Source: Rhodococcus coprophilus NBRC 100603
Lineage (GTDB): Bacteria > Actinomycetota > Actinomycetes > Mycobacteriales > Mycobacteriaceae
Reading direction: 5' to 3'
NCBI RefSeq assembly: GCF_001895045.1
Contig: NZ_BDAM01000011.1
Location: 62,001-126,000, forward strand
Length of the DNA: 64,000 nucleotides
The notes beneath the pieces are model-generated. The model made no database searches. It was not told where the DNA came from and saw nothing but the letters and a program-made list of their open reading frames with translations. Both the position numbers and the translations under genes were made by a program. Within the stretch, counting starts at the first letter, position 1; each line of letters starts with the position of its first letter. This document shows, in pieces, positions 38,218-55,815 of the stretch.

Positions 38218-38645
38218 CGAGCGGCACTACCTTCCACGATCGACATGTCGATAGTGGAAACGGTGCCACCTTCCCGCTCTTCCGACGACACCGAGATCGA
38301 GTCCGTCAGGGAGTTGAGTACGTGCCAGCCGAACGAGCGGGGCTGCCCGATCGCGGCGGCATTCTCGGTGGGAGCGGCCAGGGCGACGCGGAGTCGCCCG
38401 GGCACCAGCTGGAAGCTGCACGACAAGGTGGCGTCGTCGGGCGCGCCCATGATCAGGCGGGTCGCAGCCTCGTCCACGGCGAGTTTCACATCGGCCACCG
38501 TATCGAGATCGAAGTCGTGCTGTAGGGCGATCGCCGCAGCAACCGCACGTAGTACGGAGAGCTGGGCGGGGTCGGCCTGGACTCGCAGTTCTACTACCGG
38601 GGTTGTGTGGTCGCGTGCCGATTCGATCGACGCGGAATTGGCCAT
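38214..38645 (-). CDS. rsbW: RsbW/UsfX-like anti-sigma factor of SigF
   Basis: This is a 143-residue protein with a GHKL-like fold. Residues 30-65 (VLRAVAAAIALQHDFDLDTVADVKLAVDEAATRLI) match the RsbW start. The N-box Asn of kinases is replaced (DEAATRL), and the G1 box DxGxG is not recognisable. It therefore probably binds and blocks SigF without phosphorylating an antagonist, as proposed for mycobacterial UsfX. It is co-translated with sigF. The start is the ATG at 38645. Confidence 0.85.
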   Translation of the reverse strand: MANSASIESARDHTTPVVELRVQADPAQLSVLRAVAAAIALQHDFDLDTVADVKLAVDEAATRLIMGAPDDATLSCSFQLVPGRLRVALAAPTENAAAIGQPRSFGWHVLNSLTDSISVSSEEREGGTVSTIDMSIVEGSAAR

Positions 38646-38716
38646 GAGGTTCTGATCTCCATGCAGGGGGGAAGAAGCAGGTCAAGGGGGTCGTTTCTTC
38701 GGTGTCCAGGGCAAGG

Positions 38717-38742
38717 CTACCCACACTGTCAGGAATTCAACC
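38717..38742 (-). promoter_or_regulatory. SigF-type promoter of rsbW-sigF
   Basis: On the minus strand GGTTG-N15-GGGTAG lies about 70 bases upstream of the rsbW start. This is close to the SigF consensus GGTTT-N15-17-GGGTAT and implies that SigF drives its own operon. Confidence 0.7.
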
Positions 38743-38939
38743 GCCCGCATCCCTACATCGGGGGTGGCACATATGTCCGTTACGGTTGAGACCTGCCGCC
38801 CGGTGCACTACTGTTGGGCGAAGGTTGAGCACACAGCCGGGAACTCGAAAGCGCCACGCGGCCGCGAGGTTTTTCGGCACGTAGCCGGAGTGCCACCGTT
38901 GTCGTCGCGCTTACAACATCGTCTGTGTTGGGAAGTGTC

Positions 38940-39383
38940 ATGACAGTTTCTCAGCGAAGCGCATCGCCTCATCTCAGGTCTACGACCTGGCCCGTTCACC
39001 CGGCGCCCTCGGACGCTTCGGACGAACAGTCGTTCGGAGCAGAATTCAGAGCACGAGCGATCGGATCCGACGTGATCCAGATCTCCGTCGTCGGAGATGT
39101 CGATATTCGCAACGCCCTCGCATTACGCGACTTCACCTGCCGTTACCTCGAATCGTCACGGCTCGTCCTGGACCTCTCGGAGGTCGATTTCTTCGGCGCC
39201 GCAGGCCTCAGAGTGGTCGAAGACCTGGAGGTGTGCAGCGCCCGTAGCGGATATCGCTGGGCGCTGGTCGGAGGCAGGCCCGTACAGCGGTTGTTCCGCG
39301 TGCTCGGGCCGACGCTCCCGATCGCCGCGCATAGCTCGCTCGACGGCGCTCTCGTCGCACTCGCTCTCGGCCACGCGTCCTGA
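38940..39383 (+). CDS. STAS-domain anti-anti-sigma factor with altered phosphosite
   Basis: This 147-residue protein has a disordered N-terminus of about 35 residues, then one STAS domain (VIQISVVGDVDIRNALALRDF, LVLDLSEVDFFGAAGLRVV). The Ser/Thr normally phosphorylated after the DxS loop (DSSG in SpoIIAA/RsbV) reads GAAG at 86-89. It also has Cys67 and Cys99, placed much as the two redox cysteines of mycobacterial RsfA. It is divergent from rsbW-sigF and is the best candidate antagonist of that anti-sigma factor, perhaps switched by redox. The ATG at 38940 is preferred over upstream TTG codons. Confidence 0.82.
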   Translation: MTVSQRSASPHLRSTTWPVHPAPSDASDEQSFGAEFRARAIGSDVIQISVVGDVDIRNALALRDFTCRYLESSRLVLDLSEVDFFGAAGLRVVEDLEVCSARSGYRWALVGGRPVQRLFRVLGPTLPIAAHSSLDGALVALALGHAS

Positions 39384-39417
39384 CTGAGGCTCCGCGCGCC
39401 GAACTCAGGCTCGGGCA

Positions 39418-39777
39418 TCAGGTCGCGATCCCCACGGCGAAGCTTCCGTAGACGATCATCAGCACGAGGAGCGCCCATCCGGCGCCCTGCCAAATCTGCC
39501 ATCTGCCGGCAGACTGCCAAACCCGGTAGGTCTGCACGAACGCTCCCAGTCCGCCGAGGAGCAGGACGAGCGTCGGTCCGAATGCCAGGATCGCGCGAGC
39601 GGGATCTGTGCAGACCGCAAAATCCGCGTCGGCGCACGCATCGCCGGTGCTGAGTGCCGACCACACGATCACACCGGCTGCGATCGTTGCGGCGAGCACG
39701 ATCACTCCCGCGGCGTACCACACGGCACGGCGTGCGACCTGGGACTCCTGTCGAAGGCTCTTCACTTCAGGTGTCAT
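39418..39777 (-). CDS. Hypothetical membrane protein with three helices
   Basis: This 119-residue protein has a basic N-terminus (KSLRQESQVARRAVWY), then helices at about 20-41, 62-81 and 97-117. The loop between the first two carries Cys residues (DACADADFAVC) that could form a disulfide outside the membrane. Homologues are common in Corynebacteriales, but I know no function. Its upstream region contains an 18-bp tandem duplication. No SigF promoter was found for it. Confidence 0.72.
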   Translation of the reverse strand: MTPEVKSLRQESQVARRAVWYAAGVIVLAATIAAGVIVWSALSTGDACADADFAVCTDPARAILAFGPTLVLLLGGLGAFVQTYRVWQSAGRWQIWQGAGWALLVLMIVYGSFAVGIAT

Positions 39778-39787
39778 GGAATATCCT

Positions 39788-39823
39788 GTGCTGAAAGTGT
39801 TTTCGGTGCTGAAAGTGTTTTCG
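39788..39823. repeat. Perfect 18-bp tandem duplication in the leader of a membrane protein gene
   Basis: The unit GTGCTGAAAGTGTTTTCG occurs twice in a row (39788-39805 and 39806-39823). It lies 10 bases upstream of the ATG at 39777 on the minus strand, where it should fall in the promoter or 5' leader. Copy number could alter expression. Confidence 0.85.
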
Positions 39824-39993
39824 GTCGGGATCCTTCCGACGAATTCTCCGGCCCGCTCGGGGATCGGGCCATCCGTACAAAAGGGTTGTAGTGGGGGACT
39901 ACCCGGTGGGCAGCGACTTAATCACGCGGCGCCCGACCGACGCGCGTGGCGGTCATCGTCGCGGTACTCCTCTGACGGACGCAGCCGATCCGC

Positions 39994-40671
39994 TCAGTCG
40001 CCGACGACTCGTTCGTGGAGTGTCATGAGCAGGTGGTCGAACGCTGCCCGGCTCATCGCTTCGGTGCCCGGGCCGGAGGTGATGTCGGCAACGAGTTGCT
40101 CGGCGAGCGTGCGGAGTTTGACGTTGGTTTCCTGGGATCGCCAGGCAAGAACTTCGAAGGCGTGCTGAGCCGAGATGCAGTACACCAGCATGAGTGCGCC
40201 CTTGGCCTGTTCGATCACGGCGCGGGACTCTGCGAGGGCGTTGACCGCCAGGTCGACGCCCTCGCGGACTTCCTCTTCGAAGGCGTCCGACAGATCCAGA
40301 TAGAACCCTGACGTTCCGAGCAGCGTGCCGTCCTCGTCGAGCAGCCGATCTCCGATCACGGCGACATGTTTCACCTGTCCGGCTGTGTCGATGATGCGAT
40401 GCCGGCTACTGAACGGCTTGCCCACCGAACGCACAGCTTCCAGAACGACCGCGATGTGCTCTTTGTCGTCCGGATGCTTGTGCTGCAGCAGCAATTCGGT
40501 GGTGGGGGAGACGGTGCCGGGTTCGTAGCCGTGCATCCGGGCGACGGCATCCGACCACTCCCAGGTGTCGTCCGCGAGCAGGTACCTGAAGCTCCCGACG
40601 TGCTGGGTGGCGCCGTCCCCGATAGTGCCGTCCGCCGGAGACGGGTCATTGGTGCTGCTGCGGTCCGCCAT
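39994..40671 (-). CDS. PAS-ANTAR RNA-binding regulator
   Basis: This is a 225-residue protein. A PAS_3-like domain (about 25-115) includes WEWSDAVARMHGYEPGTVSPTTELLLQHKHPDD. A short coiled linker follows, then a C-terminal ANTAR domain (ALAESRAVIEQAKGALMLVYCISAQHAFEVLAWRSQETNVKLR). ANTAR proteins bind paired hexaloops in mRNA leaders and prevent termination. The PAS domain probably sets activity. Its target hairpins were not identified. The ATG at 40671 is preferred; a GTG at 40710 in the same frame is possible, and neither has a strong ribosome-binding site. Confidence 0.88.
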   Translation of the reverse strand: MADRSSTNDPSPADGTIGDGATQHVGSFRYLLADDTWEWSDAVARMHGYEPGTVSPTTELLLQHKHPDDKEHIAVVLEAVRSVGKPFSSRHRIIDTAGQVKHVAVIGDRLLDEDGTLLGTSGFYLDLSDAFEEEVREGVDLAVNALAESRAVIEQAKGALMLVYCISAQHAFEVLAWRSQETNVKLRTLAEQLVADITSGPGTEAMSRAAFDHLLMTLHERVVGD

Positions 40672-40804
40672 GGGCTCGATTATGCGATATACGCCGTGGT
40701 CCGACGCCACCGCCTCGAGCAGAGCGGTGACGCCGGAGCACGGCGATTGTGAGGCGGGATGCCGAATACAAAGTTTGTGACGGGCGTCCCGGGTGGGCGG
40801 TCGG

Positions 40805-42223
40805 TCAGCGGTCCTCGGTGAGCTGAGCGAGGAACGAGTTCGCCCAGCGATCCACGTCGTGCGTCATCACGTGTCTGTGCATGGACCGCATCCGCCGGGC
40901 GGCGCTCGCGCGCTCTTCCCCGACGGCACTGACCACGGCGCGTTTGACGTCCTCGAGATCGTGCGGGTTCACGACGTGTGCACGTCGCAGCTCGGCAGCG
41001 GCGCCCGCGAATTCGCTGAGGACGAGTGCTCCGCTCCCGTCGCCGTGACAGGCCACGTACTCCTTGGCGACCAGATTCATGCCGTCCCGGAAGGGGGTGA
41101 CGACCATGACATCCGCTCCGGTGTACATCGCCACCAGCTCTTCGCGGTCGACTGGGCGGTGCAGATAGTGCACTACCGGCCGGCCGAGTTGCCCGAATTC
41201 TCCGTTGATGTTGCCGACCTGGCGTTCGATGTCGTCTCGCAAAGTGGCATAGGCCGAAAGCCGCTCGCGGCTGGGGGTCGCGAGCTGGACCATGACGACC
41301 TTCTCTGGGTCGAGTGTGCCCTCCACGAGCAGTTCGCGCAGTGCCTCGAGACGGACGCTGATTCCCTTGGTGTAATCGAGCCGGTCGACACCGAGCAGAA
41401 TCGTCTCCGGATCGCCCAACTCGGCGCGTATCTCCTTCGCGCGCAGCTTTGTGGCTGCGGCAACCGATTGATCGCGCAGTTGGGTGGAGTCGATGGAGAT
41501 CGGGTAGGCGCCGACACGTACCCGGCGATCGCCGAGATCGATGGTGCCGCCCCCGGTCGTTCCGCGAGGTGAACTCGGCAGGTCGAGGAGACGGCGGGCG
41601 AGGTACAAGAAGTTCTCCGCACCACCGGGGAGATGGAAGCCGACGAGGTCTGCCCCCATGAGGCCTTCGAGGATCTCCTTACGCCACGGCAGCTGGAGGA
41701 ACAGTTCGGTAGGGGGAAACGGGATGTGCAGGAAGTACCCGATCCGCAGGTCGGGCCGCAGGTCGCGCAGCATGCGGGGGACAAGTTGCAGCTGATAGTC
41801 GTGCACCCACACCGTCGCCCCCGGCGCCGCGGCGCGCGCCGCCGCTTCGGCGAATCGGCGGTTGACCTTCTCGTAGGTGCGCCACCAGTCGCGGTCGAAC
41901 GTCGGCGCGATCACCGCGTCGTGGTAGAGCGGCCACAAGGTCGCGTTGGAAAATCCTTCGTAGTACTCCGTGACCTCCGCTTCGCTCAGCTGCACGGGAT
42001 GAAGAGTCAGACCCTCTTCGACGAAGGGCTCGAGGTCGACGTCGGGAGTACCCGGCCAGCCGACCCAGGCTCCGGCGACGGACCGGAGTACCGGCTCGAG
42101 GGCGGTCACCAGGCCGCCCGGGCTACGGCGCCACACTCCGGGCCCGCCGTCCGGCGAAGCCTCCAGATCCACCGGCAGCCGATTGGCCACCACCACGAAC
42201 TCGTTCGACGACGTCTCACTCAT
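40805..42223 (-). CDS. otsA: Trehalose-6-phosphate synthase
   Basis: This 472-residue GT20 glycosyltransferase joins UDP- or ADP-glucose to glucose-6-phosphate. [38 protein letters not shown], the acceptor-site [15 protein letters not shown] and the donor-site [26 protein letters not shown] are all intact. The length is normal. Trehalose is both a stress solute and the precursor of the mycolate carrier lipids in this order. The otsB phosphatase gene is not in the window. It may be co-transcribed with the small gene and pfpI upstream. Confidence 0.96.
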
Positions 42224-42272
42224 CGTGTTCCACTTTCGGGGTAATACAGGCAGGTGGGGTGCACTTCGGGCG

Positions 42273-42425
42273 TCACGCCTCCAGCCGCTTCACTTCGACG
42301 GCCTGCACCTCGTCGAACATGGCGTCTATCCGGCGCTTGATCTCGGCGGTGCTGAAACGTACGCCAAGCGCCCCGGGCGAGGGCGTTCCTGCTTGGTGGC
42401 CTGGGAGGGCATCGACCTCAACCAT
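42273..42425 (-). CDS. Small hypothetical protein upstream of otsA
   Basis: This is a 50-residue acidic protein with a Pro/Gly N-terminus. The C-terminal helix [28 protein letters not shown] looks amphipathic. The ATG at 42425 follows AAAGGAAT at a reasonable distance; a longer in-frame start at 42467 is less supported. It lies between pfpI and otsA on the same strand with gaps of 68 and 49 bases. No family is recognised. It could assist OtsA or act alone. Confidence 0.5.
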
Positions 42426-42493
42426 CGTCGAGGATTCCTTTCTGTCACAACACGGAGGAGCAGACATCGGGCGTGTGGTCAGTCTTACGCCGG

Positions 42494-43066
42494 TCAGGCC
42501 CGGCTCGGCCCTGCTTCGGCGATCACGTCGACGACGGCCGCGCAGAATGCGGGCAGATCGTCGGGATTACGGCTCGATACGAGGTTGCGGTCGATCACCA
42601 CTTCTTTGTCCACCACGGTTCCACCCGCGTTGCGAATGTCGGTGCGCACACTCGGGTAGGAGGTCAACGTGCGGCCGTTCACCACTCCGGCCTCCACCAG
42701 AGTCCACGGGCCGTGACAGATGACGCCCACCGGCTTGTCCGCCTCGACGAATTCCCGCACGAATGCCACCGCGTCGGGGTCCTGCCGGAGCTGATCCGGG
42801 TTCGTCGTACCGCCGGGCAGCAACAACCCGTCGAAATCCGAGACCGCCGCGTCGGCGACCGTCCGGTCCACGGCATACCTGTCCGCGTTGTTCACGTCCT
42901 GCTTCATCGCCTGGATCTCACCGTTCTTCAGCGACAGCAGTTCGACGGTGGCACCTTCGTGCTCGACTGCTTTCCTGGGCTCGACGAGCTCTACCTCTTC
43001 GACTCCGTCGGTGGCGAGAATCGCAATCCTGCGTCCTGCGAGACGGCCTTGTTGCGCTGTGGTCAT
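42494..43066 (-). CDS. DJ-1/PfpI-family protein
   Basis: This is a 190-residue protein. GRRIAILATDGVEEVELVEPRKAVEHEGATVELLS is the PfpI start. The nucleophile is Cys117 in GVICHGPW, with the conserved Glu in the first motif (DGVEEVE). The family includes deglycases and chaperones of damaged proteins, common in general stress regulons. A good SigF-type promoter lies 35-60 bases upstream. The start is the ATG at 43066. Confidence 0.92.
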   Translation of the reverse strand: MTTAQQGRLAGRRIAILATDGVEEVELVEPRKAVEHEGATVELLSLKNGEIQAMKQDVNNADRYAVDRTVADAAVSDFDGLLLPGGTTNPDQLRQDPDAVAFVREFVEADKPVGVICHGPWTLVEAGVVNGRTLTSYPSVRTDIRNAGGTVVDKEVVIDRNLVSSRNPDDLPAFCAAVVDVIAEAGPSRA

Positions 43067-43100: not shown

Positions 43101-43125
43101 TTACCCCGGATGCGTGCCCGGAAAC
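43101..43125 (-). promoter_or_regulatory. SigF-type promoter of pfpI
   Basis: The minus-strand sequence is GTTT-N15-GGGTAA. The -35 is at 43122-43125 and the -10 at 43101-43106, giving a leader of about 30 bases. Confidence 0.7.
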
Positions 43126-43133: not shown

Positions 43134-44672
43134 TCATCGACGATGCAGATCACTCGTCGCGGGTCCTTCGAGCAGGGTGCCGTCCGCGGCGAATCGGGAG
43201 GCGTGCAACGGGCAATCCCACGAGGCCTCTGCGTCGTTCCAGCGCAGAATCCCGCCGAGGTGCGGGCAGACCGCCGACACCCGTTGCGTCCGGCCGCCGA
43301 CCGTCGAGACACCCACCGGCCGGCCGCAGTCCCTCACGACTCGCCCCTCGCCCTCCGCAGGCGACGATTCAGGGTCGGTGCGGGTCTCGGCGGTCCACCA
43401 TCCGCGGGCGAGATTGACGCCCACCCCCACGTTGAGCTTCACGGCGCTCGGGACATCGAAAACCTGGGACGGGCTCCACGCCGCGTATGCCGGGGCCCAC
43501 TTCTCCACCTGTGGGTCATGCGCGCCGGTGATCCGGGTCGTCAACAGGTGTGCGGCCGCGACGGCGTTCGTCATGCCCCATTTGCCGTATCCGGTGGCGA
43601 CCCACAACCGCTCGCTCGTCGGGAGCAGCGGGCCCGCGTACGGCAGAGAGTCGAGCGTGCTGTAATCCTGGGCCGACCACTGCGCGACCTGCTTCGCTCC
43701 GGGAAAATGACGTTGGGTCCACGCGACGAGGTCCGCCACCGCAGCGCTGGTCGACCCCTGTTGCCGGCCCACCACGTGGCCGTTGCCGCCGACGAGGAGA
43801 AGGCGCCCACCGTCACGGGCGGAGTCTCCGGCACGAGCCGTCGCGGGCGCGGTGCGGAGTGAGCGGGTCGGGGAGTCCGCCGACAGGTACATGCCGGTCG
43901 GCGGTGGCTCGGGTACCTCGAAGGCGATCGCGTACGAGCGTTCCGGTTCGAGTCGCGCGAAGAACGCGCCGCGATCGAGGATCGGCGTGCCGGTAGCCAG
44001 CACGACGTGTGCGGCGCGCACGCTCCCGGATCCGGTCTCGACGGTGCATCCGGCCTTGTCCGTCTTCACCGAACGGGCCCGAATCCCCGTGAACAGCTCA
44101 CTGTTGGCGGCCCGAACCTCCCGGACGGCAGCGCGGAGCATCGGCATGGGGTCGAACTGCAACTGGTTCGGCACCACGACCGCGGAGGTGACGGGATAGG
44201 GCAACTCGGTCTCGGTCACGAGCCGGGCGGGCAGGCCCGCTGCGAGGCAACTGCGATGCTCCGCCTCCACCGAGCTCACACTCTCGCTGCTCGTCGCGTA
44301 GGTGTAGGCGTCGGCGGTTTCCGTCGGCACATGGTTGTTCCTGCAGAAGTCTGCCACCCACTCCTGCGCTCGGAGGTTGCCGTCCACGTACGCCTGCACG
44401 ACCGGCCGCGAATGCCTCCGCGAGATCTGGGACAGGGCGGTTCCCTGCAGCACGCTCACCTTCGCCGTGGTGTTGCCGGTGGTCACTGCTCCCACGTCGC
44501 GTGCTTCCAGGATTGCGACCCGCTGCCCGGATCTGGCGAGGAGCAGGGCCGTGACGACTCCGGTCAATCCGGCGCCGACGACGACGGTGTCGTAGGCCTC
44601 GCGTCGTTGCGTCCAATCGTCGCCGGGCTCGATGCCGGCCTCGGCGTCGCGTGCAAGCCACAATGAAGTCAC
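43134..44672 (-). CDS. FAD-dependent oxidoreductase fused to a Rieske domain
   Basis: This is a 512-residue protein. The DAO-type FAD domain begins DTVVVGAGLTGVVTALLLARSG, and KWGMTNAVAAAHLL is near its end. After a linker at about 390-430, a C-terminal Rieske [2Fe-2S] domain (about 440-505) carries CPHLGG and CPLHASRF, giving the Cys-His and Cys-His ligand pairs. Such DAO-Rieske fusions are widespread but poorly characterised and often stress-linked. It is divergent from the zinc dehydrogenase, with SigF-type promoters on both strands between them. Confidence 0.9.
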   Translation of the reverse strand: MTSLWLARDAEAGIEPGDDWTQRREAYDTVVVGAGLTGVVTALLLARSGQRVAILEARDVGAVTTGNTTAKVSVLQGTALSQISRRHSRPVVQAYVDGNLRAQEWVADFCRNNHVPTETADAYTYATSSESVSSVEAEHRSCLAAGLPARLVTETELPYPVTSAVVVPNQLQFDPMPMLRAAVREVRAANSELFTGIRARSVKTDKAGCTVETGSGSVRAAHVVLATGTPILDRGAFFARLEPERSYAIAFEVPEPPPTGMYLSADSPTRSLRTAPATARAGDSARDGGRLLLVGGNGHVVGRQQGSTSAAVADLVAWTQRHFPGAKQVAQWSAQDYSTLDSLPYAGPLLPTSERLWVATGYGKWGMTNAVAAAHLLTTRITGAHDPQVEKWAPAYAAWSPSQVFDVPSAVKLNVGVGVNLARGWWTAETRTDPESSPAEGEGRVVRDCGRPVGVSTVGGRTQRVSAVCPHLGGILRWNDAEASWDCPLHASRFAADGTLLEGPATSDLHRR

Positions 44673-44741: not shown

Positions 44742-44765
44742 ATACCCGGATCGGCGAGGTTAACC
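44742..44765 (-). promoter_or_regulatory. SigF-type promoter of the FAD-Rieske gene
   Basis: The minus strand reads GGTT-N14-GGGTAT, with its -35 inside the palindrome GGTTAACC at 44758-44765. That palindrome also supplies the -35 of the divergent promoter. The 14-base spacer is one short of the usual range. Confidence 0.6.
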
Positions 44766-44783
44766 CCGGTAGGTGTCGGGTAG
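44758..44783 (+). promoter_or_regulatory. SigF-type promoter of the zinc alcohol dehydrogenase gene
   Basis: The plus strand reads GGTT-N16-GGGTAG, ending 37 bases before the start codon. It shares its -35 palindrome GGTTAACC with the divergent promoter. Confidence 0.7.
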
Positions 44784-47870: not shown

Positions 47871-47896
47871 GTACCCTTCCCGTCCTCGTCTCACAC
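47871..47896 (-). promoter_or_regulatory. SigF-like promoter of the kinase-surE operon (weak -35)
   Basis: The minus strand reads GTGT-N16-GGGTAC. The -10 matches well; the -35 has one change from GTTT. The predicted start of transcription lies about 3 bases before the ATG. Confidence 0.5.
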
Positions 47897-47914: not shown

Positions 47915-47940
47915 GTGTGGGGCGCAGCGGTGGCGGGTAT
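47915..47940 (+). promoter_or_regulatory. SigF-like promoter of the SRPBCC-oxidase operon
   Basis: The plus strand reads GTGT-N16-GGGTAT, with a perfect -10. It is 53 bases before the ATG at 47994 and back to back with the kinase promoter. Confidence 0.6.
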
Positions 47941-47993: not shown

Positions 47994-48452
47994 ATGACCA
48001 GAGTCGCCCGCAAGCAGACGAGTGCGCCGCCGAGCCGGGTCTGGGAAGTCCTGGCGGACGGGTGGAACTATGCGACCTGGGTCGTCGGTGCCTCCCGGAT
48101 CCGCAAGGTCGATGCGGCATGGCCGGCGGAAGGCAGCCGCATCCACCATTCGGTCGGCTTGTGGCCCGCCTTGCTCGACGACCGCACCGCGGTACTCGCC
48201 GCGACGCCCGACCGCAGACTCGTTCTGCGTGCTCGCGCGTGGCTCTTCGGGCAGGCCGAGATCGAGCTGAGGATCGAACCCGCGCCGGGCGGGGGTTCCA
48301 CGGTGACGATGTCCGAGCACGTGGTGACGGGGCTGCCGAGTCTTCTTCCCGACTTCGTTCAGGAACAGGCCGTGTGGCCGAGAAACCAGGAGTGCCTCTC
48401 GCGCCTGGCCCTGCTCGCGGAACGTGCGACTCCTGACGGACCGGCTGCATGA
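47994..48452 (+). CDS. SRPBCC-family (START-like) protein
   Basis: This is a 152-residue polyketide_cyc2-type protein. SAPPSRVWEVLADGWNYATWVVGASRIRKVD is the family start, and the C-terminal helix is EQAVWPRNQECLSRLALLAE. These proteins have a hydrophobic cavity for lipids or ring compounds. It is coupled by ATGA to a CrtI-like oxidase gene, so it may present or protect that enzyme's substrate. GAGGAGGGGA precedes the ATG. Confidence 0.88.
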   Translation: MTRVARKQTSAPPSRVWEVLADGWNYATWVVGASRIRKVDAAWPAEGSRIHHSVGLWPALLDDRTAVLAATPDRRLVLRARAWLFGQAEIELRIEPAPGGGSTVTMSEHVVTGLPSLLPDFVQEQAVWPRNQECLSRLALLAERATPDGPAA

Positions 48453-50038
48453 CCGCGGAAACGGTCGACGCCGTCGTCATCGGTGCCGGCCCCAACGGGC
48501 TCACGGGCGCCGCGGCACTCGCCGATGCGGGCTGGGATGTCCTCGTGCTCGAGGAACAGCCGGAACCCGGTGGAGCCGTGCGAAGCGCCGAACTCTACCC
48601 GGGATTCCGGGCCGACTTATTCAGCGCGTTCTATCCGCTGGGGGCGGTCTCCCCGGCTTTCGCCGCTCTCGACCTCGAATCCCACGGTCTGCAGTGGAGC
48701 CGGTCGCCGAACTCGTTCGGCCATCCTCTCGGGCCCGCCGACGAGGACGCGGTGGTGGTCGCACGTGAGGCGGCGGACACCGCAGCCGATCTCGAGCGGC
48801 GCTGCGCGGGGGACGGAGAAGCGTGGACGAAACTCGTCGACCAGTGGAACGAGGTGCGCAGCGCACTGCTGCAACTGCTGCTTTCCCCGTTTCCGCCGGT
48901 TCGGGGTTCCGCGTCGCTGCTGCGCGCACTGGGACCGGCAGAAGCGCTCCGGTTCGCCCGGATGCTGGCACTTCCCGTCAGGCGGATGAGCGAAGAACTG
49001 TTCGGCGGAGAAGCCGCTCGGCTCCTCCTGCTCGGCAACGCCATGCACTCCGACATCCCGCCCGACGCCCCGGGTAGTGGCGTGATGGGGTACATCTTGA
49101 CGATGCTCGCCCAGGACGTGGGTTTTCCGTCTCCGGTCGGCGGTGCGAGCGCGCTCACCGACGCGTTGGTGCGCCGCGGCGAGCATGCCGGAATGCAGGT
49201 GCGGTGCGGCAGCAGGGTCACCGCGGTCGACGTCGAAGACGGCAGCGCGGTAGCGGTTTGCACCGCGAGCGGGGAGCGGATCAAGGTTCGCCGGGCCGTC
49301 CTCGCGGACGTTTCGGCACCCGCGTTGTACGGGACGCTGCTCGCCGACTCCGCAGCCGCCGACCGCGCGCGCGACGACCTGCGCGGATTCGAATGGGACA
49401 CGCCGGTGGTCAAGGTGAACTACGCGCTCGGCAGTCCGGTTCCGTGGCGCTCGCCGTCGTTGTCCCGGACCGGCACCGTCCACGTCGGTGCCGACACGAA
49501 TGCGATGGCCCGGTGGTCCGCCGAACTGTCGACGGGGGTGATCCCGGAATCGCCGTTTCTGTTGTTCGGGCAGATGACCACCACCGATCCCACGAGATCA
49601 CCCGCCGGTACCGAAAGTGCTTGGGCGTACACCCATCTGCCCCGGGGTATCACCGACGACGAGTCGGCCGACGTTCTCGCGGAGAGGGTCGACGCCCAGC
49701 TCGAGGCGTATGCGCCCGGTTTCCGGGACACGGTTCTCGATCGGGCCGTGCAGCGTCCCTCGGATCTCGAATCGGCCGACGCAAACCTCGTCGGCGGCGC
49801 GGTCAACGGTGGCACCGCCCAGATCCACCAGCAGTTGTTCCTACGACCGGCACCCGGGCTCGGAGGTTCACGAACTCCGGTGGGAAAGCTGTATCTCGCC
49901 AGTGCGGGGACACACCCCGGCGGAGGTGTCCACGGAATGTGCGGCTGGAACGCCGCCGCCGCCGCACTCCAGGACCAGAAGAGGACGGGCCCGCTGCGTC
50001 GCGGTCTCCACACCTTGGGCCGCCGGGTGATGTCATGA
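48449..50038 (+). CDS. CrtI-like FAD-dependent oxidoreductase/desaturase
   Basis: This 529-residue flavoprotein of the phytoene-desaturase-like amine oxidase group has the N-terminal DAVVIGAGPNGLTGAAALADAGWDVLVLE and the C-terminal GGGVHGMCGWNAAAAAL that closes the FAD site. Such NAD(P)/FAD proteins are often annotated as carotenoid enzymes, but no other carotenoid gene is here. Pairing with an SRPBCC protein suggests a hydrophobic substrate. The start overlaps the upstream stop by four bases. Confidence 0.87.
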   Translation: MTAETVDAVVIGAGPNGLTGAAALADAGWDVLVLEEQPEPGGAVRSAELYPGFRADLFSAFYPLGAVSPAFAALDLESHGLQWSRSPNSFGHPLGPADEDAVVVAREAADTAADLERRCAGDGEAWTKLVDQWNEVRSALLQLLLSPFPPVRGSASLLRALGPAEALRFARMLALPVRRMSEELFGGEAARLLLLGNAMHSDIPPDAPGSGVMGYILTMLAQDVGFPSPVGGASALTDALVRRGEHAGMQVRCGSRVTAVDVEDGSAVAVCTASGERIKVRRAVLADVSAPALYGTLLADSAAADRARDDLRGFEWDTPVVKVNYALGSPVPWRSPSLSRTGTVHVGADTNAMARWSAELSTGVIPESPFLLFGQMTTTDPTRSPAGTESAWAYTHLPRGITDDESADVLAERVDAQLEAYAPGFRDTVLDRAVQRPSDLESADANLVGGAVNGGTAQIHQQLFLRPAPGLGGSRTPVGKLYLASAGTHPGGGVHGMCGWNAAAAALQDQKRTGPLRRGLHTLGRRVMS

Positions 50039-50065: not shown

Positions 50066-50091
50066 GTTTCGCGGGGCGAAGTGCCGGGTAC
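50066..50091 (+). promoter_or_regulatory. SigF-type promoter upstream of the methyltransferase-CDGSH operon
   Basis: The plus strand reads GTTT-N16-GGGTAC. The -10 ends 8 bases before an ATG at 50100 that opens a 41-codon frame, and 141 bases before the methyltransferase GTG. Confidence 0.7.
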
Positions 50092-50099: not shown

Positions 50100-50225
50100 A
50101 TGACCGAAGACCCGGCCGGCGGACCCTCGTGGTCGATGTCGTCGGGAAGGTGCGCCTCAGCACGGTCGGCTCAGGCATTGGCTGCTGCGGGGTCGCGGAC
50201 TCCCGCACATGGAACTCCGGGGTGA
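50100..50225 (+). CDS. Candidate leaderless 41-residue ORF
   Basis: The ATG at 50100 lies about 2 bases after the predicted SigF transcription start. It opens MTEDPAGGPSWSMSSGR and ends PAHGTPG before TGA at 50223-50225. The composition is low-complexity (Ser, Ala, Gly) and no family is recognised. Its stop falls 7 bases before the methyltransferase GTG at 50233, so it could act as a coupled leader peptide. It may equally be chance. Confidence 0.3.
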   Translation: MTEDPAGGPSWSMSSGRCASARSAQALAAAGSRTPAHGTPG

Positions 50226-50232
50226 TGTAACC

Positions 50233-50907
50233 GTGACCACTTCTCCAGTTCTGGACCGGCCGAATACGCCACGTGTGTGGCGCCTTCCCGGTGTATACCG
50301 TCCACAAGAGGATTCGTTCCTGCTGGCTCGGGCACTCCACGACGCCGGAGGAGCACAGGACGCGAAGGTACTCGACTTCTGTACCGGGAGCGGTTTTCTC
50401 GCGATCACGGCCGCCAAGGCCGGAGCCGGTGCGGTAACCGCACTCGACATCTCCCGGAGGGCTGTTCTCACCGCCCGGGCCAATGCTCTCTCACGTCGGC
50501 TGCCGATCTCGGTGCTTCGCGGAAGTCTGGACAAGGCTGTGGAGCACGGACCCTTCGATGTCGTTCTGTCCAATCCTCCGTACGTGCCGGTGGACGGCGA
50601 AGGCAAGGACCCCCGTTGGGATGCCGGCCCGGACGGACGATCCGTTCTGGACCCGCTCTGCGATTCCTTGCCGACGCTCTTGTCTCCCGACGGCTTCGCG
50701 CTGCTCGTGCACTCGGAATTCACCGGCGTCGAAGAGACTTTGGAGCGCGTGCAAGCCGCCGGACTCGCGGGCTCGGTCGTCGCGCGTGAACGAATCCCGT
50801 TCGGCCCGGTACTGCAGCGCCGTCTGAGTTATCTGCAAGAAGTCGAACTCGCGGAACGCGGTGTCGACAGCGAAGAGGTGGTGGTCATCCGTGCAGCCCG
50901 GATCTGA
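50233..50907 (+). CDS. HemK-like SAM-dependent methyltransferase
   Basis: This is a 224-residue class I methyltransferase. The SAM motif is VLDFCTGSGFLAITAA and the catalytic NPPY motif is in DVVLSNPPYVPVDG, as in N5-glutamine and HemK2-type enzymes. The substrate could be a protein, but short members like this are not proven release-factor enzymes. I prefer the GTG at 50233 because GGTGAT lies 7-8 bases upstream; an ATG at 50209 would add eight residues. The 3' end overlaps the CDGSH gene. Confidence 0.85.
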   Translation: MTTSPVLDRPNTPRVWRLPGVYRPQEDSFLLARALHDAGGAQDAKVLDFCTGSGFLAITAAKAGAGAVTALDISRRAVLTARANALSRRLPISVLRGSLDKAVEHGPFDVVLSNPPYVPVDGEGKDPRWDAGPDGRSVLDPLCDSLPTLLSPDGFALLVHSEFTGVEETLERVQAAGLAGSVVARERIPFGPVLQRRLSYLQEVELAERGVDSEEVVVIRAARI

Positions 50908-51133
50908 GGGCGGTCGTCGCGTAGTGCACGCGACCACCGGCAACGCGGAAGACGTCACGGTCGTCCGCAAGGTGAAAGGGGGGCCGATGCTCGTCAACGG
51001 CCCGGTCCGGATCCTGACGGACGACGGCGCCGAGACGGAATCGGACCGCTTCGTGGTCGCGGTGTGCCGGTGCCGGCGCAGCGCGCTGTACCCGTTGTGC
51101 GACACCAGTCATCGGCGTCCCGCCCGAGGCTGA
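50891..51133 (+). CDS. CDGSH-type iron-sulfur protein
   Basis: This is an 80-residue protein. The cluster motif CRCRRSALYPLCDTSH has the three Cys and one His that hold a [2Fe-2S] cluster in mitoNEET-like proteins, with Thr in place of the Gly of CDGSH. The upstream beta segment (GPMLVNGPVRILTDDG) is the usual fold. It overlaps the methyltransferase gene by 17 bases. In actinobacteria such genes often lie near the diiron protein family encoded at 54087-55127. The role is probably redox sensing or electron transfer under stress. Confidence 0.88.
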   Translation: MQPGSEGGRRVVHATTGNAEDVTVVRKVKGGPMLVNGPVRILTDDGAETESDRFVVAVCRCRRSALYPLCDTSHRRPARG

Positions 51134-51300: not shown

Positions 51301-51456
51301 TCAGTACCAGTGGGCGCGACCACCGACGGCCTTGCCGGATGCTCCCAGGATCGCCATGATGACGCCGATCACCAGAAGGATGACACCCAGTGTCGTCAGG
51401 ATCGAGATGCCGGTGAAGAATCCGACTACGAGAAGAATCAGGCCCAGAACAATCAT
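51301..51456 (-). CDS. DUF6131-like small membrane protein
   Basis: This is a 51-residue protein. Two hydrophobic helices (MIVLGLILLVVGFFTGI and TLGVILLVIGVIMAILG) are followed by the basic tail GGRAHWY. This pattern is typical of DUF6131 proteins in actinobacteria, which have no known function. A near-perfect SigF promoter lies 56-80 bases upstream. The start is the ATG at 51456. Confidence 0.82.
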   Translation of the reverse strand: MIVLGLILLVVGFFTGISILTTLGVILLVIGVIMAILGASGKAVGGRAHWY

Positions 51457-51511
51457 TGCGTCCACCTCGCTGTCTTGTCCGATGCCGAGCGGCTCCGGAT
51501 CCAAGTCCTGA

Positions 51512-51536
51512 ATACCCGGATTGTCCGCATCGAAAC
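51512..51536 (-). promoter_or_regulatory. SigF promoter of the DUF6131 gene
   Basis: The minus strand reads GTTT-N15-GGGTAT, a full match to the core SigF consensus and the best in the window. Confidence 0.8.
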
Positions 51537-51615: not shown

Positions 51616-51640
51616 GATTGACCGCCTACCTCGCGGGTAG
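51616..51640 (+). promoter_or_regulatory. SigF-like promoter of DUF2243-ctaG (poor -35)
   Basis: The -10 GGGTAG at 51635-51640 is good. The -35, GATT at 51616-51619, is weak. The ATG at 51651 would be within about 4 bases of the transcription start. Confidence 0.4.
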
Positions 51641-51650: not shown

Positions 51651-52145
51651 ATGACGCAGCGTGACGTGGAGGGCTCGGCCGGTTCGCGCCGACCCGAAAG
51701 AGGCAGGAACGTGTTGGCCGGTGCCTTTCTCGGCTTGGGTGCGGTAGCCATGATGGACGAAGTGCTCTTCCACCAGATACTTCACTGGCATCACTTCTAC
51801 GACAAATCGACAACCTCGGCCGGCTTGGTCTCCGACGGCCTGTTCCACGCCTTCAGCTGGTTCGCCACGGTGGCCGGGTTCTATCTGGTGGTGATGTCTG
51901 TCCGTGACGGGAAGTTGTGGGTACGTGCCCTGCTCGGTGGCTTCGTGACCGGGGTAGGCGCGTTCCAGCTGTACGACGGGCTGGTCCAGCACAAGCTGTT
52001 CGGTCTTCATCAGATCCGTTACGAAGTCGATCTCCTGCCGTACGACCTGACCTGGAACATTCTGGCAGGCGCACTGCTGGTGGTCGGGCTGACGATCATC
52101 GCGTCCACCTACCGGCAGGCGTCGCCGTCGGTGGCTTCGCAATGA
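51651..52145 (+). CDS. DUF2243 membrane protein
   Basis: This is a 164-residue protein with four predicted helices. The hallmarks LGLGAVAMMDEVLFHQILHWHH and LGGFVTGVGAFQLYDGLVQHKLFG are clear, with several His residues at membrane edges that could bind metal or haem. It pairs with a CtaG-like protein in many genomes. The start is the ATG at 51651. The stop overlaps the ctaG-like start by ATGA. Confidence 0.88.
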   Translation: MTQRDVEGSAGSRRPERGRNVLAGAFLGLGAVAMMDEVLFHQILHWHHFYDKSTTSAGLVSDGLFHAFSWFATVAGFYLVVMSVRDGKLWVRALLGGFVTGVGAFQLYDGLVQHKLFGLHQIRYEVDLLPYDLTWNILAGALLVVGLTIIASTYRQASPSVASQ

Positions 52146-52924
52146 CGACCCTCGTCCTACTCGGCGTAGGGATCTGCGCCGTGGTCGTCTACGTGGCTGC
52201 GGCGGCGAGAGCGCAGTCGTGGCCTGTCGCGCGCACTCTGAGCTGGACCGCAGGGTGGGTGGCGCTCGTCGCGGCACTGTTGAACTCTGCGTCCGCCCAC
52301 GGAGGGGGACACGGACACGGCGCGCACCACTCCTTCGACTTCGTGGGGCACATGGTCTCGCACGTCGTGGTGGGCATGGCGGTGCCGCTGTTGCTCGTGC
52401 TCGCAGCCCCCGTGGCCCTTGCGCTCCGCGTACTGCCCGTGTCGGCGGCGCGTCGCGTCTCGCGAGTGCTGCGGTCGCGACCCGCCGAAGTGCTGACCCA
52501 CCCCCTCGTCGCGGCGACGCTCAACATCGGCGGCCTGTGGCTTCTGTACCGGACGTGGTTGTTCGAGTACATGCTTGGCGGCACCTGGGTGGCGTGGCTG
52601 ATCGAGTTCCACATCGTCGCGGCCGGTTACCTGTTCACCTATTCCCTGGTGGGCGTGGATCCGTCTCCGCACCGCACCTCCTTCGGTCTTCGCGCAGCGG
52701 TGCTGGTCCTGTCGATCGCCGCACACAACATCCTTGCCAAGACTCTCTACGTGGACCCACCTTCCGGCGTCTCCACGGCGCAAGCCGAAACGGGCAGCCA
52801 GGTGATGTATTACGGGGGCATACCGTTCGAATTGGCGCTCGTCGTACTGCTGATTCACCGGTGGGCAGCGCGTGCCCGTCACCGGAGTGGAATGTCCGGT
52901 CCCGATCTCCTCCGCTCGACCTGA
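52142..52924 (+). CDS. CtaG-like cytochrome c oxidase assembly membrane protein
   Basis: This is a 260-residue protein of the CtaG_Bacillus (caa3_CtaG) family with seven or so helices. HMVSHVVVGMAVPLLLVLAAPVALALR and HNILAKTLY are family blocks. A His/Gly-rich loop at about 52-64 (HGGGHGHGAHH) could bind copper. It is co-translated with DUF2243. Together they may help copper delivery to an oxidase, but no oxidase gene lies here. Confidence 0.86.
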   Translation: MTTLVLLGVGICAVVVYVAAAARAQSWPVARTLSWTAGWVALVAALLNSASAHGGGHGHGAHHSFDFVGHMVSHVVVGMAVPLLLVLAAPVALALRVLPVSAARRVSRVLRSRPAEVLTHPLVAATLNIGGLWLLYRTWLFEYMLGGTWVAWLIEFHIVAAGYLFTYSLVGVDPSPHRTSFGLRAAVLVLSIAAHNILAKTLYVDPPSGVSTAQAETGSQVMYYGGIPFELALVVLLIHRWAARARHRSGMSGPDLLRST

Positions 52925-52948
52925 GGCAGGTAGCTGCGGTCGCGAAGT

Positions 52949-52975
52949 GTTTGAGCAATGTCCCGCGCGGGGTAC
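52949..52975 (+). promoter_or_regulatory. SigF-type promoter of dps
   Basis: GTTT-N17-GGGTAC ends 41 bases before the dps ATG. Confidence 0.6.
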
Positions 52976-53016: not shown

Positions 53017-53556
53017 ATGTCGAAATACACGGTGCCCGGTTTGAGCGGCAAAGACGGCGCGAAAGTTGCCCGTGTTCTGCAGGAGCGTTTGAGCGCGTAC
53101 AACGACCTGCACCTCACTCTCAAGCACATCCACTGGAACGTTGTCGGTCCCAACTTCATCGGTGTGCACGAAATGATCGATCCCCAGGTGGAACTCGTAC
53201 GCGGATACGCCGACGAGGTTGCGGAACGCATCGCGACTCTCGGTGAATCGCCCAAGGGCACGCCGGGGGCGATCGAGAAGAACCGGACCTGGGACGACTA
53301 CTCGGTGGGACGCGACACCGCCCAGGCACACCTCGCGGCTCTCGATCTGGTCTACGACGGTGTGATCACCGACAACCGTAAGGCGATCGAAGAAGTCGGC
53401 GACATCGATCCGATCACGGAAGACGTCCTCATCGGGCATACCGGGCAGCTGGAGAAGTTCCAGTGGTTCGTGCGAGCGCACCTGGAGAACGCTTCGGGCG
53501 CTCTGAGCCACGGCAAAGCTTCCACCGAGAAGGAAGCTGCGGCCAAGGCCCGCTGA
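53017..53556 (+). CDS. dps: Dps DNA-binding ferritin
   Basis: This 179-residue ferritin-like protein oxidises and stores iron and protects DNA. Ferroxidase residues His39, His51, Asp66 and Glu70 are in place (HIHWNVVGPNFIGVHEMID, YADEVAERI), at the same numbers as in M. smegmatis Dps1. The C-terminus is basic and short (KASTEKEAAAKAR) and may bind DNA. I chose the ATG at 53017 because GGAGGAA precedes it. It is a classic general-stress protein, and a SigF-type promoter precedes it. Confidence 0.95.
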   Translation: MSKYTVPGLSGKDGAKVARVLQERLSAYNDLHLTLKHIHWNVVGPNFIGVHEMIDPQVELVRGYADEVAERIATLGESPKGTPGAIEKNRTWDDYSVGRDTAQAHLAALDLVYDGVITDNRKAIEEVGDIDPITEDVLIGHTGQLEKFQWFVRAHLENASGALSHGKASTEKEAAAKAR

Positions 53557-53581
53557 CCGAACCGGACTTCCGAATCACAGG

Positions 53582-53742: not shown

Positions 53743-53769
53743 GTTTTGTCCGGCCGACCGAACGGGTAC
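53743..53769 (+). promoter_or_regulatory. SigF-type promoter of the small membrane protein gene
   Basis: GTTT-N17-GGGTAC ends 8 bases before the ATG at 53778. The predicted transcript begins about 2 bases before the start codon. Confidence 0.6.
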
Positions 53770-53777
53770 AAACCACT

Positions 53778-54047
53778 ATGACCAACACAACGAGGCACGA
53801 GCGGCCGACCACGGGTTCCCGGATAGCGGGATGGATCGGCTACGCATGCGTTCTTGCAAGCATCGCCGTCGTGGCCATGGCACTGTTCGCCGCGGGTGAC
53901 GGGTACGCGGGCTGGACGGTGGTCGCCGTCGTGATCGCCGCAGCCCTGCTCTCGACCGGCGTGGCCCTGATCACGGTCAACCTCCGCCACCGTCGGCTGC
54001 GTGGTTCGGGTGGAACCTCGACGCACGAGCCGGGTGTCCTCGACTGA
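53778..54047 (+). CDS. Small two-helix membrane protein
   Basis: This 89-residue protein has helices at about 17-39 and 45-68, then a basic tail (NLRHRRLRGSGG). It resembles the protein at 58102-58323 in layout (hydrophobic pair with GYxxVLxxIxxVAxAL, then RR-rich tail). No function is known. There is no ribosome-binding site, in line with a leaderless SigF-driven message. Confidence 0.75.
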   Translation: MTNTTRHERPTTGSRIAGWIGYACVLASIAVVAMALFAAGDGYAGWTVVAVVIAAALLSTGVALITVNLRHRRLRGSGGTSTHEPGVLD

Positions 54048-54086
54048 CCGCCCGCCGGCCTCCTCGTCCGGCCGCTCCGGTGGATA

Positions 54087-55127
54087 TCAGCCCACGGGCT
54101 GGTCCACCGGAGCTTTCTCGTCGAGGGGGGAGAGGAGCGAAGTGGTGCCTGCCGTCCAGCTGTCGAGCAGGTGCCGGGCGAGCCGCCCCTCGAGGTACTC
54201 CGCAGCCTCGGCACCGAAGACGATGTCGGAGGCGCACTCCGGATCAGCGGTGACCATCTCGCCGACGACATCGTGACGCAGCACCAGTTCGTGAACCGCG
54301 TCCGCCTCGATGTGCTCGGTGTAGAACAGGATGCACGCGGGGTCGGCGCCGAGACGCTCGAGCGCCGCGGCCATCCGCCGGGCGCTCGGGGCCGTGGTGA
54401 TCTCCGCGGCGGTGAACATCCCGACGAGCATCGGCATACGAGCACGGTGCAGTCCGCACAGTGACATGAAGTTGACTGTCGCGAGGGTGACGGCCGGGAC
54501 GACATCGAGGTAGCGGAGGTACGCGTCGTCGAGATCGGCGGCTTTCAGCAGATCGGCGTACAAGCGGGAATGCATCTTGTCTGCCCGGCCCCCGCCGTAC
54601 TCGTCGAATTCCACTGCGACGAGTGCTGCCTTCGCTCGTCCTCGCAGGCGGGGGATGGCGAAGGCGTGCGGGTCGGCTTCCTTGAGGTGGTAGATGGAGC
54701 GGTGTACGAAGAACTCCCGGATGTGCTCCCACGTGCCGCGTTCTGCCAATTCGTGCGAGACGCCCCATGCGTCCTTCGGTTCGCGGTAGAGCGCGTCGAA
54801 CGTCGCATCCGTGTCGTCGGTGACCGGGACGTCCGCGCGCAACCGGTCGAGGAAGACTCGCTCGAGCTCGGCGCGGAGCCCCAGCGGGCCTGCCATCCAC
54901 TCCCACGACGCGTCGACGCCGTCGTATCCGCGGTAGTGCAGCTCGTAGAGCATCGTCAAGGCGAGCTGGACGTCGTCGCCGTACGGATCGGCGTCCCCGA
55001 CCGTCACCGGCCAGGGAGCAGCATCGGCGGGTGCGGAAAGCCGCTCTACGACGGCAGCGGAGATCGGACCCCGGGGGGTGGGGAGGGACGCGGCGGACAG
55101 ATCGCAGGGCCGGATCACATCAGACAT
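54087..55127 (-). CDS. Haem-oxygenase-like diiron protein (iron-containing redox enzyme family)
   Basis: This is a 346-residue, mostly helical protein. Segments such as MLYELHYRGYDG, REFFVHRSIYHLKEADPHAFAIPRL, EFDEYGGGRADKMHS and YTEHIEADAVHELVLRHDVV carry the spaced Glu, Asp and His residues of haem-oxygenase-like diiron oxidases. The reaction is unknown. It is often found near CDGSH proteins, as here. The start ATG is about 3 bases from a predicted SigF transcription start. Confidence 0.85.
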   Translation of the reverse strand: MSDVIRPCDLSAASLPTPRGPISAAVVERLSAPADAAPWPVTVGDADPYGDDVQLALTMLYELHYRGYDGVDASWEWMAGPLGLRAELERVFLDRLRADVPVTDDTDATFDALYREPKDAWGVSHELAERGTWEHIREFFVHRSIYHLKEADPHAFAIPRLRGRAKAALVAVEFDEYGGGRADKMHSRLYADLLKAADLDDAYLRYLDVVPAVTLATVNFMSLCGLHRARMPMLVGMFTAAEITTAPSARRMAAALERLGADPACILFYTEHIEADAVHELVLRHDVVGEMVTADPECASDIVFGAEAAEYLEGRLARHLLDSWTAGTTSLLSPLDEKAPVDQPVG

Positions 55128-55136
55128 ACGAGCCGG

Positions 55137-55162
55137 TTACCCGTGGAAAGCCGGTGAGAAAC
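55137..55162 (-). promoter_or_regulatory. SigF-type promoter of the diiron protein gene
   Basis: The minus strand reads GTTT-N16-GGGTAA. The ATG lies 9 bases beyond the -10. Confidence 0.7.
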
Positions 55163-55168
55163 GAGTGC

Positions 55169-55193
55169 GTGTGGTGGCCGGCCCTCGGGGTAA
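55169..55193 (+). promoter_or_regulatory. SigF-like promoter of the SDR pseudogene
   Basis: The plus strand reads GTGT-N15-GGGTAA, back to back with the diiron gene promoter and 10 bases before the pseudogene ATG at 55204. Confidence 0.5.
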
Positions 55194-55203
55194 TCGCTCC
55201 ATT

Positions 55204-55815
55204 ATGAGCGACGACAAGGAACGGAAACCTCAATCCATCGGCTGTCCGGGCGACACGGCGGATATCGCGGAGCGTCCGCGGACGAGATGCGCGACTATCG
55301 CGGCAGGGAGTTGCTCTCCGGACGCAAGGCCTTGATCACCGGTGGAGATTCGGGCGTCGGGCGGGCGTTCGCGAAGGAGGGTGCAGACGTAGCTATCGCC
55401 TATCTGGTGGACATCGTCGTCAACAGCGTCGGTACCCAGCAACCCGTCGACGACTTCGCAGACCTCGACGACGAGCGGTGCGCCGGACCTGCGCCGTCAA
55501 TATCGACAGCTTCTTCCACGTCACCAAGGCGGCGCTTGCCCACCTGCCCCGGGGCGCCGCGGTCATCAACACGGCGTCGATCAAGTCGATCAACAGGTTG
55601 CGCGGCAACAAGACCCTGATCGACTACTCGGCCACCAAGGGTGCGGTCATTGCCCTGACTTACTCGCTCGCGCAGGCGCTTCGGGACCGCACGGCCGGGC
55701 GGCGCAGCCCGACGAGATCGCCCCGTCCTACGTATTCTTCGCCTCCGAAATGATGTCCTCGTACTACAGCGGGGAAGTGCTCGCTCCCATCGGAGGCGAG
55801 ACACTGCCGGGCTGA
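55204..55815 (+). pseudogene. Decayed SDR oxidoreductase (YghA/general-stress type)
   Basis: The fragments in order are: [14 protein letters not shown] (frame 1); [40 protein letters not shown] and [14 protein letters not shown] (frame 3); [20 protein letters not shown] and DYSATKGAVIALTYSLAQAL (frame 2); then QPDEIAPSYVFFASE and SSYYSGEVLAPIGGETLPG (frame 1). At least three frameshifts are present. Deletions remove about 6 residues after GVGRA, about 60 residues after AIAYL, and the stretch before QPDEIAPS. It is non-functional, although a SigF-like promoter remains. Confidence 0.9.

Follow-up and report, generated by a model that had tools for sequence, protein, structure and literature searches.

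In Mycobacterium smegmatis, an array analysis of a ΔsigF mutant found 28 genes numbered MSMEG_1758 to MSMEG_1804, lying beside and including sigF, to be down in both growth phases (PMC4694148). In M. tuberculosis the rsbW-type gene of the usfX-sigF pair is cotranscribed with sigF (PMC7693655). For Rhodococcus, the SigF protein of R. erythropolis was found to be up 2.38-fold under light, and the passages that describe this give no promoter data (PMC9416670). Among the best literature matches listed, which were titles and abstract openings with subscription papers mostly outside, none dealt with SigF promoters in the surroundings of sigF in Rhodococcus, and none with a shifting sigF cluster.

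Here we analyze the sigF locus of Rhodococcus coprophilus NBRC 100603 in a stretch of 64,000 nucleotides (the window), which corresponds to positions 62001-126000 of contig C11 (NZ_BDAM01000011.1) in a genome of 4.55 Mb. The position of this locus is kept in synteny across the genus, and its contents change greatly between species. We hold it to be highly probable that a SigF regulon cluster extends from rsbW-sigF to about 55.2 kb of the window, at a position with fast-changing gene content, and we infer from the DNA sequence that transcription of the cluster depends on SigF. The sigma factor had been called SigF in a first-pass annotation of the window, and it passes the curated NCBI model NF005514 with 428.9 bits (cut-off 372). 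The protein is 98% identical to SigF of Rhodococcus sp. 105337 and 92% identical to SigF of R. gordoniae. At E <= 1e-60 its only homologue in its own genome is SigF itself. An rsbW-type anti-sigma gene (PF13581) lies directly upstream and overlaps the start of sigF by 4 bp, as is demanded of an actinobacterial SigF, and a SigF-type promoter at 38718 precedes the rsbW-sigF operon, which likewise agrees with membership in this group. Compared to the NCBIfam RsbW/SpoIIAB models, RsbW gave matches below the cut-off only.

We searched for promoters with a weight matrix built only from M. smegmatis promoter strings and containing no Rhodococcus sequence. Their source was Table 1 of PMC4694148, of which only the first part entered the matrix. 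The training set comprised 53 of the 57 rows marked 'a' (also found by an earlier study), while the remaining four strings, with uncommon boxes or with spacers 14, 18 or 19 long, were dropped before matrix building. A site was called strong at a score of at least 14, and a looser threshold of at least 11 was also applied. The 16.6-kb island (38646-55210) contains 11 strong sites. A 400-kb sample of the genome, taken as twenty 20-kb stretches over six contigs, contains 14, so that the density per base is approximately 19-fold higher in the island. In sixty dinucleotide-shuffled versions of the island, the number of strong sites averaged 0.5 and never exceeded 2. Nine of the strong sites in the island were intergenic and upstream of a gene compared to five in the 400-kb sample, so the equal intergenic density elsewhere that the first-pass annotation had named as its refutation was not found. 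At the looser threshold, the numbers were 16 and 89. The genome contains 30 occurrences of the exact form GTTT-N14-17-GGGTA, six of which fall inside a 12-kb span of the island. Two of the other 24 were set aside because contig C20, on which they lie, is an rRNA operon. Of the 22 left, 12 were located in intergenic DNA ahead of a called gene, eight were in coding DNA, and two were in intergenic DNA with no gene start following. The observation of a promoter cluster is sound, and stronger than it was originally stated.

The genus set comprised 18 genomes, of which 17 were read outward from sigF; G044 was excluded since its sigF contig seemed too fragmentary. The anchor genes that close the interval on the right-hand side were visible in 16 genomes, while the interval of G046 ends at a contig end. 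Between rsbW-sigF and the anchor we found 208 strong sites in 351 kb (17 genomes). Beyond the anchor there were four in 243 kb (16 genomes), and on the other, downstream side of sigF there were two in 92 kb (11 clade loci). A site scoring at least 11 preceded 155 of 248 unit heads inside the interval and six of 133 in the flank beyond the anchor.

The interval varied in length from 3,448 bp in G051 to 33,347 bp in G049, and in strong sites from one to 18 in the same two genomes. The 390 proteins called within it fall into 81 families; 22 of the families were found in a single genome, and 35 have a member directly behind a site scoring at least 13. Units were SigF-preceded in 80 of 123 cases when the head family was present in at least 10 genomes, in 54 of 65 when it was present in five to nine, and in 38 of 60 when it was present in at most four, compared to nine of 130 in the flank. 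Units headed by rare families were thus about as often SigF-preceded as those headed by common families. The accessory products include a long catalase, a Cu/Zn superoxide dismutase, a hemerythrin, a topoisomerase IB, an Orn/Lys/Arg decarboxylase, an Nramp protein, a Ppx/GppA phosphatase and a multicopper oxidase. The region had previously been proposed to be a co-inherited stress module with its own sigma factor. SigF does adjoin it, but a fixed block it is not, given 81 families, a length of 3.4-33 kb and a nearly empty interval in G051.

G051 has the smallest genome of the set. Genome-wide it has 17 exact consensus sites, while the other eight of the nine congeners searched have 31-49 each; closed genomes gain up to eight matches from rRNA copies, each rRNA operon having two, and the lists of G039 and G040 contain eight matches each with the letters of the rRNA matches. 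No relative of the methyltransferase of the cluster was found in the G051 genome at E <= 1e-20, and the best dps match was only 35% identical. Both genes therefore look lost rather than moved.

The first-pass annotation had placed 13 promoters between sigF and 55 kb. All of them were recovered, with coordinates agreeing to within one base, and a weak site at 39900 before mem39k is a fourteenth. The 14 sites counted have a GTTT-like -35 box, a spacer of 15-17 bp and a -10 box of GGGTA; 11 of them are strong and three are weak (39900, 44743, and 51616). The -35 forms GTTT, GGTT, and GTGT that had been proposed apply to most sites, though not to 44743 (GGGT) and 51616 (GATT), which are both weak. 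The features, with sites given by their matrix scores, are as follows.

37435..38217, minus strand: sigF, RNA polymerase sigma factor SigF (NF005514; TIGR02980, 310 bits; Pfam sigma70 r2, r3, r4)
38214..38645, minus strand: rsbW, anti-sigma factor (HATPase_c_2, PF13581)
38718..38742, minus strand: SigF-type promoter GGTT-N16-GGGTAG, 73 bp upstream of rsbW-sigF (14.6)
38925..39383, plus strand: STAS-domain protein of the anti-sigma antagonist type (PF01740), without a conserved SigF site
39418..39777, minus strand: mem39k, small membrane protein (open reading frame without Pfam match; orthologues in 16 congeners)
39900..39923, minus strand: weak SigF-type site GATT-N15-GGGTAG before mem39k (11.6)
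39994..43066, minus strand: pfpI, orf64, otsA, and PAS-ANTAR (PF01965, PF00982, PF08447, PF03861), with gaps of 26, 49, and 94 bp for the starts used
43102..43125, minus strand: SigF-type promoter GTTT-N15-GGGTAA before pfpI (18.8)
43134..44672, minus strand: FAD-dependent oxidoreductase with Rieske domain, FAD-Rieske (PF01266, PF00355)
44743..44766, minus strand: weak SigF-type site GGGT-N15-GGGTAT before FAD-Rieske (11.2)
44758..44782, plus strand: SigF-type promoter GGTT-N16-GGGTAG before Zn-ADH (14.6)
44821..46002, plus strand: zinc-type alcohol dehydrogenase, Zn-ADH (PF08240, PF00107)
46075..47861, minus strand: pfkB-family kinase and surE (PF00294, PF01975)
47872..47896, minus strand: SigF-type promoter GTGT-N16-GGGTAC before pfkB-surE (15.1)
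47915..47939, plus strand: SigF-type promoter GTGT-N16-GGGTAT before SRPBCC-oxidase (15.1)
47994..50038, plus strand: SRPBCC protein, and an FAD oxidase with carotenoid ketolases/desaturases as relatives (PF10604, PF01593; NF045689 and TIGR02734 below cut-off)
50066..50090, plus strand: SigF-type promoter GTTT-N16-GGGTAC before methyltransferase-CDGSH (18.6)
50209..51133, plus strand: HemK2/MTQ2-type methyltransferase (TIGR00537, 119 bits, cut-off 87) and CDGSH iron-sulfur protein (PF09360)
51301..51459, minus strand: DUF6131 small membrane protein (PF19626)
51513..51536, minus strand: SigF-type promoter GTTT-N15-GGGTAT before DUF6131 (18.8)
51616..51639, plus strand: weak SigF-type site GATT-N15-GGGTAG before DUF2243-ctaG (11.6)
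51651..52924, plus strand: DUF2243 membrane protein and CtaG-like protein (PF10002, PF09678)
52949..52974, plus strand: SigF-type promoter GTTT-N17-GGGTAC before dps (16.2)
53017..53556, plus strand: dps, ferritin-like DNA-protection protein (PF00210)
53743..53768, plus strand: SigF-type promoter GTTT-N17-GGGTAC, 10 bp from the start of a small membrane protein gene (16.2)
53778..54047, plus strand: small membrane protein (open reading frame; orthologues in 11 congeners)
54087..55127, minus strand: iron-containing redox enzyme, the diiron protein (Haem_oxygenas_2, PF14518, 189 bits)
55138..55162, minus strand: SigF-type promoter GTTT-N16-GGGTAA, 11 bp from the start of the diiron gene (18.6)
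55169..55192, plus strand: SigF-type promoter GTGT-N15-GGGTAA before the broken short-chain dehydrogenase (15.2)
55287..55753, plus strand: broken short-chain dehydrogenase, split between two frames (PF00106 matches its second fragment)
55888..59211, no single strand: conserved right-hand anchor comprising AraC-DinB, RibD, DUF6328, o58102, and PPK2; SigF sites are rare from here on

Orthologues in up to 16 congeners were then scored for an upstream site of at least 11 (at least 13 in brackets). Sites were found for 16 of 16 rsbW (3), 14 of 15 pfpI (14), 10 of 10 FAD-Rieske (3), 7 of 8 Zn-ADH (7), 11 of 11 SRPBCC (11), 14 of 14 methyltransferase (14), 11 of 12 dps (11), 14 of 14 diiron (13) and 16 of 16 mem39k orthologues (8), and for all 11 orthologues of the small membrane protein at 53778 (11). 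DUF2243 has a single orthologue, which carries a site at the looser threshold only (1/1; 0). The sites were mostly kept at similar distances. Between orthologous sites of equal spacer length, with the very close G047 excluded, 544 of 558 positions were identical over the nine motif bases and 333 of 996 in the spacer, which speaks for the cluster. Genes of the cluster lacking a site of their own served as controls, and for these a site was found in none of 14 otsA, none of eight orf64, one of 13 PAS-ANTAR and four of 16 STAS orthologues. The -35 box of the rsbW promoter is GATT in 13 of the 16 congeners, so this form is probably accepted by Rhodococcus SigF.

A number of points weigh against reading the region as a SigF regulon cluster with fast-changing content. 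Sites were less well kept for pfkB (8/11; 8), the short-chain dehydrogenase (7/13; 6) and DUF6131 (6/13; 6), and those at 39900, 44743, and 51616 are weak. When at least 13 was demanded, sites were present at seven of 11 unit heads of the interval in the window and at 122 of 248 over the genus. The comparison of motif and spacer identity was restricted to places found by the scan, which favors the motif positions. Counts from the 17 genomes are not independent, as these have common ancestry; moreover, genes were called by a simple script, which makes starts, units and some small families uncertain. Finally, the changing content may stem from gene gain as well as from differential loss out of a larger ancestral cluster.

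Since otsA, orf64, and PAS-ANTAR lack individual sites and follow closely behind pfpI on one strand, they probably use the pfpI promoter, and the four genes probably form one operon. The sites of the diiron, small membrane protein and pfkB genes are located 10-11 bp from the start codons used, which suggests that their messages are leaderless or nearly so. For pfkB the start is uncertain, as the site falls inside the projected start in most congeners. Three further matches were not counted as promoters: that at 38649 before the STAS gene (score 11.0) because only the above-mentioned four of 16 orthologues have it, and those at 41482 (inside otsA) and 43099 (opposite pfpI) because they are coding or antisense. 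The short-chain dehydrogenase is broken here, yet its promoter at 55169 persists; in nine congeners the family is called, with a median length of 297 amino acids. Between the converging CDGSH and DUF6131 genes, the two 21-nt arms of an inverted repeat match perfectly around a 4-nt loop (51248-51293); this is probably a two-way terminator. Away from sigF, a second small group of three exact consensus sites within approximately 4 kb was observed at C7:264800-274000 (L184:2518-6592). Each is located upstream of a called gene, one of them a long catalase, which in this genome is outside the cluster behind the site C7:271368; in three congeners a catalase of this kind is part of the cluster.

A kinase-type RsbW needs an Asn in its N-box, and its STAS partner usually has a Ser that can be phosphorylated. 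We looked for these residues of a kinase-type RsbW/RsbV partner switch in 17 and 15 aligned rows, respectively, and found neither: the N-box position was Arg in all 17 rows of RsbW, and the phosphorylation-site position of the STAS neighbor was Ala, Pro or Val in all 15. On the basis of these residues, the switch at sigF is therefore likely to be non-phosphorylating. This fits M. smegmatis RsbW1, which was found to have no kinase activity on RsfB (PMC7693655).

Outside the genus, 20 other genomes of the family had between zero and nine strong sites in approximately 18 kb beside the canonical sigF. At 69 named loci outside the clade the density was 2.1 per 10 kb on the rsbW side, an excess partly made up by the promoter of sigF itself, and 1.0 on the other side. 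Nine strong sites in approximately 18 kb beside sigF were observed in G111 (genus g21; L143:1-20000), where seven of the island families are present among numerous further genes.

The diiron gene was sought in 35 named genomes, 33 of which had a match, 23 of them outside the genus. In six of these 23 (G013, G015, G017, G029, G030, and G032) it is located at most 20 kb from a sigF homologue, where about 0.3 of 23 would be expected at an assumed 1.4% each; further cases may be hidden by contig ends. Among the sigF genes concerned, some are second copies with 42-64% identity. In L170:1-10001 and L171:1-10001 (a Nocardiaceae metagenome-assembled genome and Smaragdicoccus) the diiron gene was observed approximately 50 bp from a second sigF of 48% identity, with many SigF sites around it, and this represents a separate sigF-bound cluster. 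Four other loci (L152, L154, L161, and L164) have a diiron gene with a strong SigF-type site and no sigF in the 10 kb around it, and in genomes without a nearby sigF the gene is often found beside the methyltransferase, with strong SigF sites. The SigF promoter therefore seems to stay with its gene, instead of the whole block passing down as a unit. The context differed and sites were few in L158, L160, L162, L165, L168, and L169; hence not all relatives of the diiron gene belong here.

That the matches merely reflect chance in GC-rich intergenic DNA has next to no probability. The motif is short, it occurs twice per rRNA operon, and more than a third of the remote exact matches (8/22) fall in coding DNA; however, the density relative to the rest of the genome, the shuffles, the retention among orthologues and the control genes all oppose it. 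For the strong sites as a group, the density and shuffle test refutes chance, while 39900, 44743, and 51616 may each be chance matches when taken singly. The promoters could instead be real and read by another sigma factor, which we regard as very improbable. Two further sigma genes of 33-37% identity are present in the genome, and extracytoplasmic function (ECF) factors may be further candidates. On the other hand, the matrix derives from SigF-dependent M. smegmatis genes, and the stretches of SigF presumed to read the promoter are identical at 35-36 of 42 and 23-25 of 29 positions to those of the four g28 genomes, taken as Mycobacterium. Only slightly more credit is due to the recent acquisition of a mobile genomic island together with its sigma factor, even though the content differs sharply between species and the diiron gene and sigF homologues adjoin in several distant genomes. 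The sigF locus keeps its place and its neighbors across the genus, and in the 16 genomes with an anchor the GC content of the interval differs from that of the flank by at most 4 percentage points. No tRNA is present in the window, no integrase, transposase or phage gene was found among the window genes from 34 to 59 kb, and no good direct repeat of at least 20 nt pairs the two borders within 37-60 kb, the part of the window searched. Nor was a mobile gene found in the 20 accessory families scanned, three of which had no Pfam match. We therefore hold this origin unlikely.

A weightier but still doubtful possibility is that of an ordinary ancestral regulon cluster in which species differ by differential loss alone; it overlaps with the reading preferred here and departs from it just on gain. 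It agrees with the presence of at least one island family near sigF at 44 of the 69 named loci outside the genus and in none of 20 control stretches of the own genome. Over all 90 loci, among which are one genus member and some genomes represented twice, at least one family was present at 59, and the glycosyltransferase family F18 at 30. The nearly emptied interval of G051, with its two missing genes, points the same way. Against loss alone, many families are found in few genomes, and other genera are differently arranged and mostly have fewer sites.

If the region is a SigF regulon cluster with fast-changing content, RsbW would hold SigF in the absence of stress. Upon stress SigF would be released and would transcribe its own operon from 38718, giving positive feedback, together with the adjoining redox and iron units (dps, CDGSH, Rieske, diiron, and Zn-ADH). 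It would also turn on DJ-1/PfpI and, via the pfpI promoter, probably trehalose synthesis by otsA. Genes would enter or leave the interval together with their SigF promoters, and what holds co-resident genes together would be their joint usefulness or their joint transfer, not a mobile element. More tentatively, the neighborhood of the sigma gene could be a regulon-bound collecting site, where genes come and go quickly and where the resident sigma factor reads, or comes to read, any that settle. If this were true, closeness to the regulator would itself be selected, and regulon membership would partly follow position. The series from G051 to G049 allows one to ask why regulons gather beside their regulator, candidate causes being shared transfer, shared usefulness and a local supply of the sigma factor. 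The analysis also lists genes that probably belong to the general stress response of Rhodococcus, including those for DUF6131, DUF2243, the diiron protein and the small membrane proteins.

Among described systems, nine SigB homologues with cross-recognition are present in Streptomyces coelicolor, a difference from the locus studied here, although these too are related stress-response sigma factors (PMC8346170). The window resembles the usfX-sigF locus of M. tuberculosis in the pairing of an rsbW-type gene with sigF (PMC7693655). The F18, F41, FAD-Rieske and PAS-ANTAR families are found beside sigF in two of the four g28 genomes and in none of the other two. Two g28 genomes, which we take to be tuberculosis-like from their gene order and open reading frame sizes, differ from the window in having just one and two strong sites in 18 kb. 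A parallel is M. smegmatis MSMEG_1758-1804, where many neighbors numbered just before rsbW-sigF have GTTT-like-N15-17-GGGTA promoters, and the methylase, type I topoisomerase and dehydrogenase kinds are shared with the Rhodococcus clusters (PMC4694148). SigF-dependent genes for a decarboxylase, a catalase, a hemerythrin and SurE have far-off locus numbers in the same list, while such kinds are found within the cluster in some Rhodococcus. Expression was demonstrated in M. smegmatis, whereas in Rhodococcus it is predicted. As in M. smegmatis, many SigF-preceded units lie beside rsbW-sigF both in the window and across the genus, and since that parallel is published, this kind of cluster is already known. 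What is added here is the presence of similar promoters across a changing gene content at sigF.

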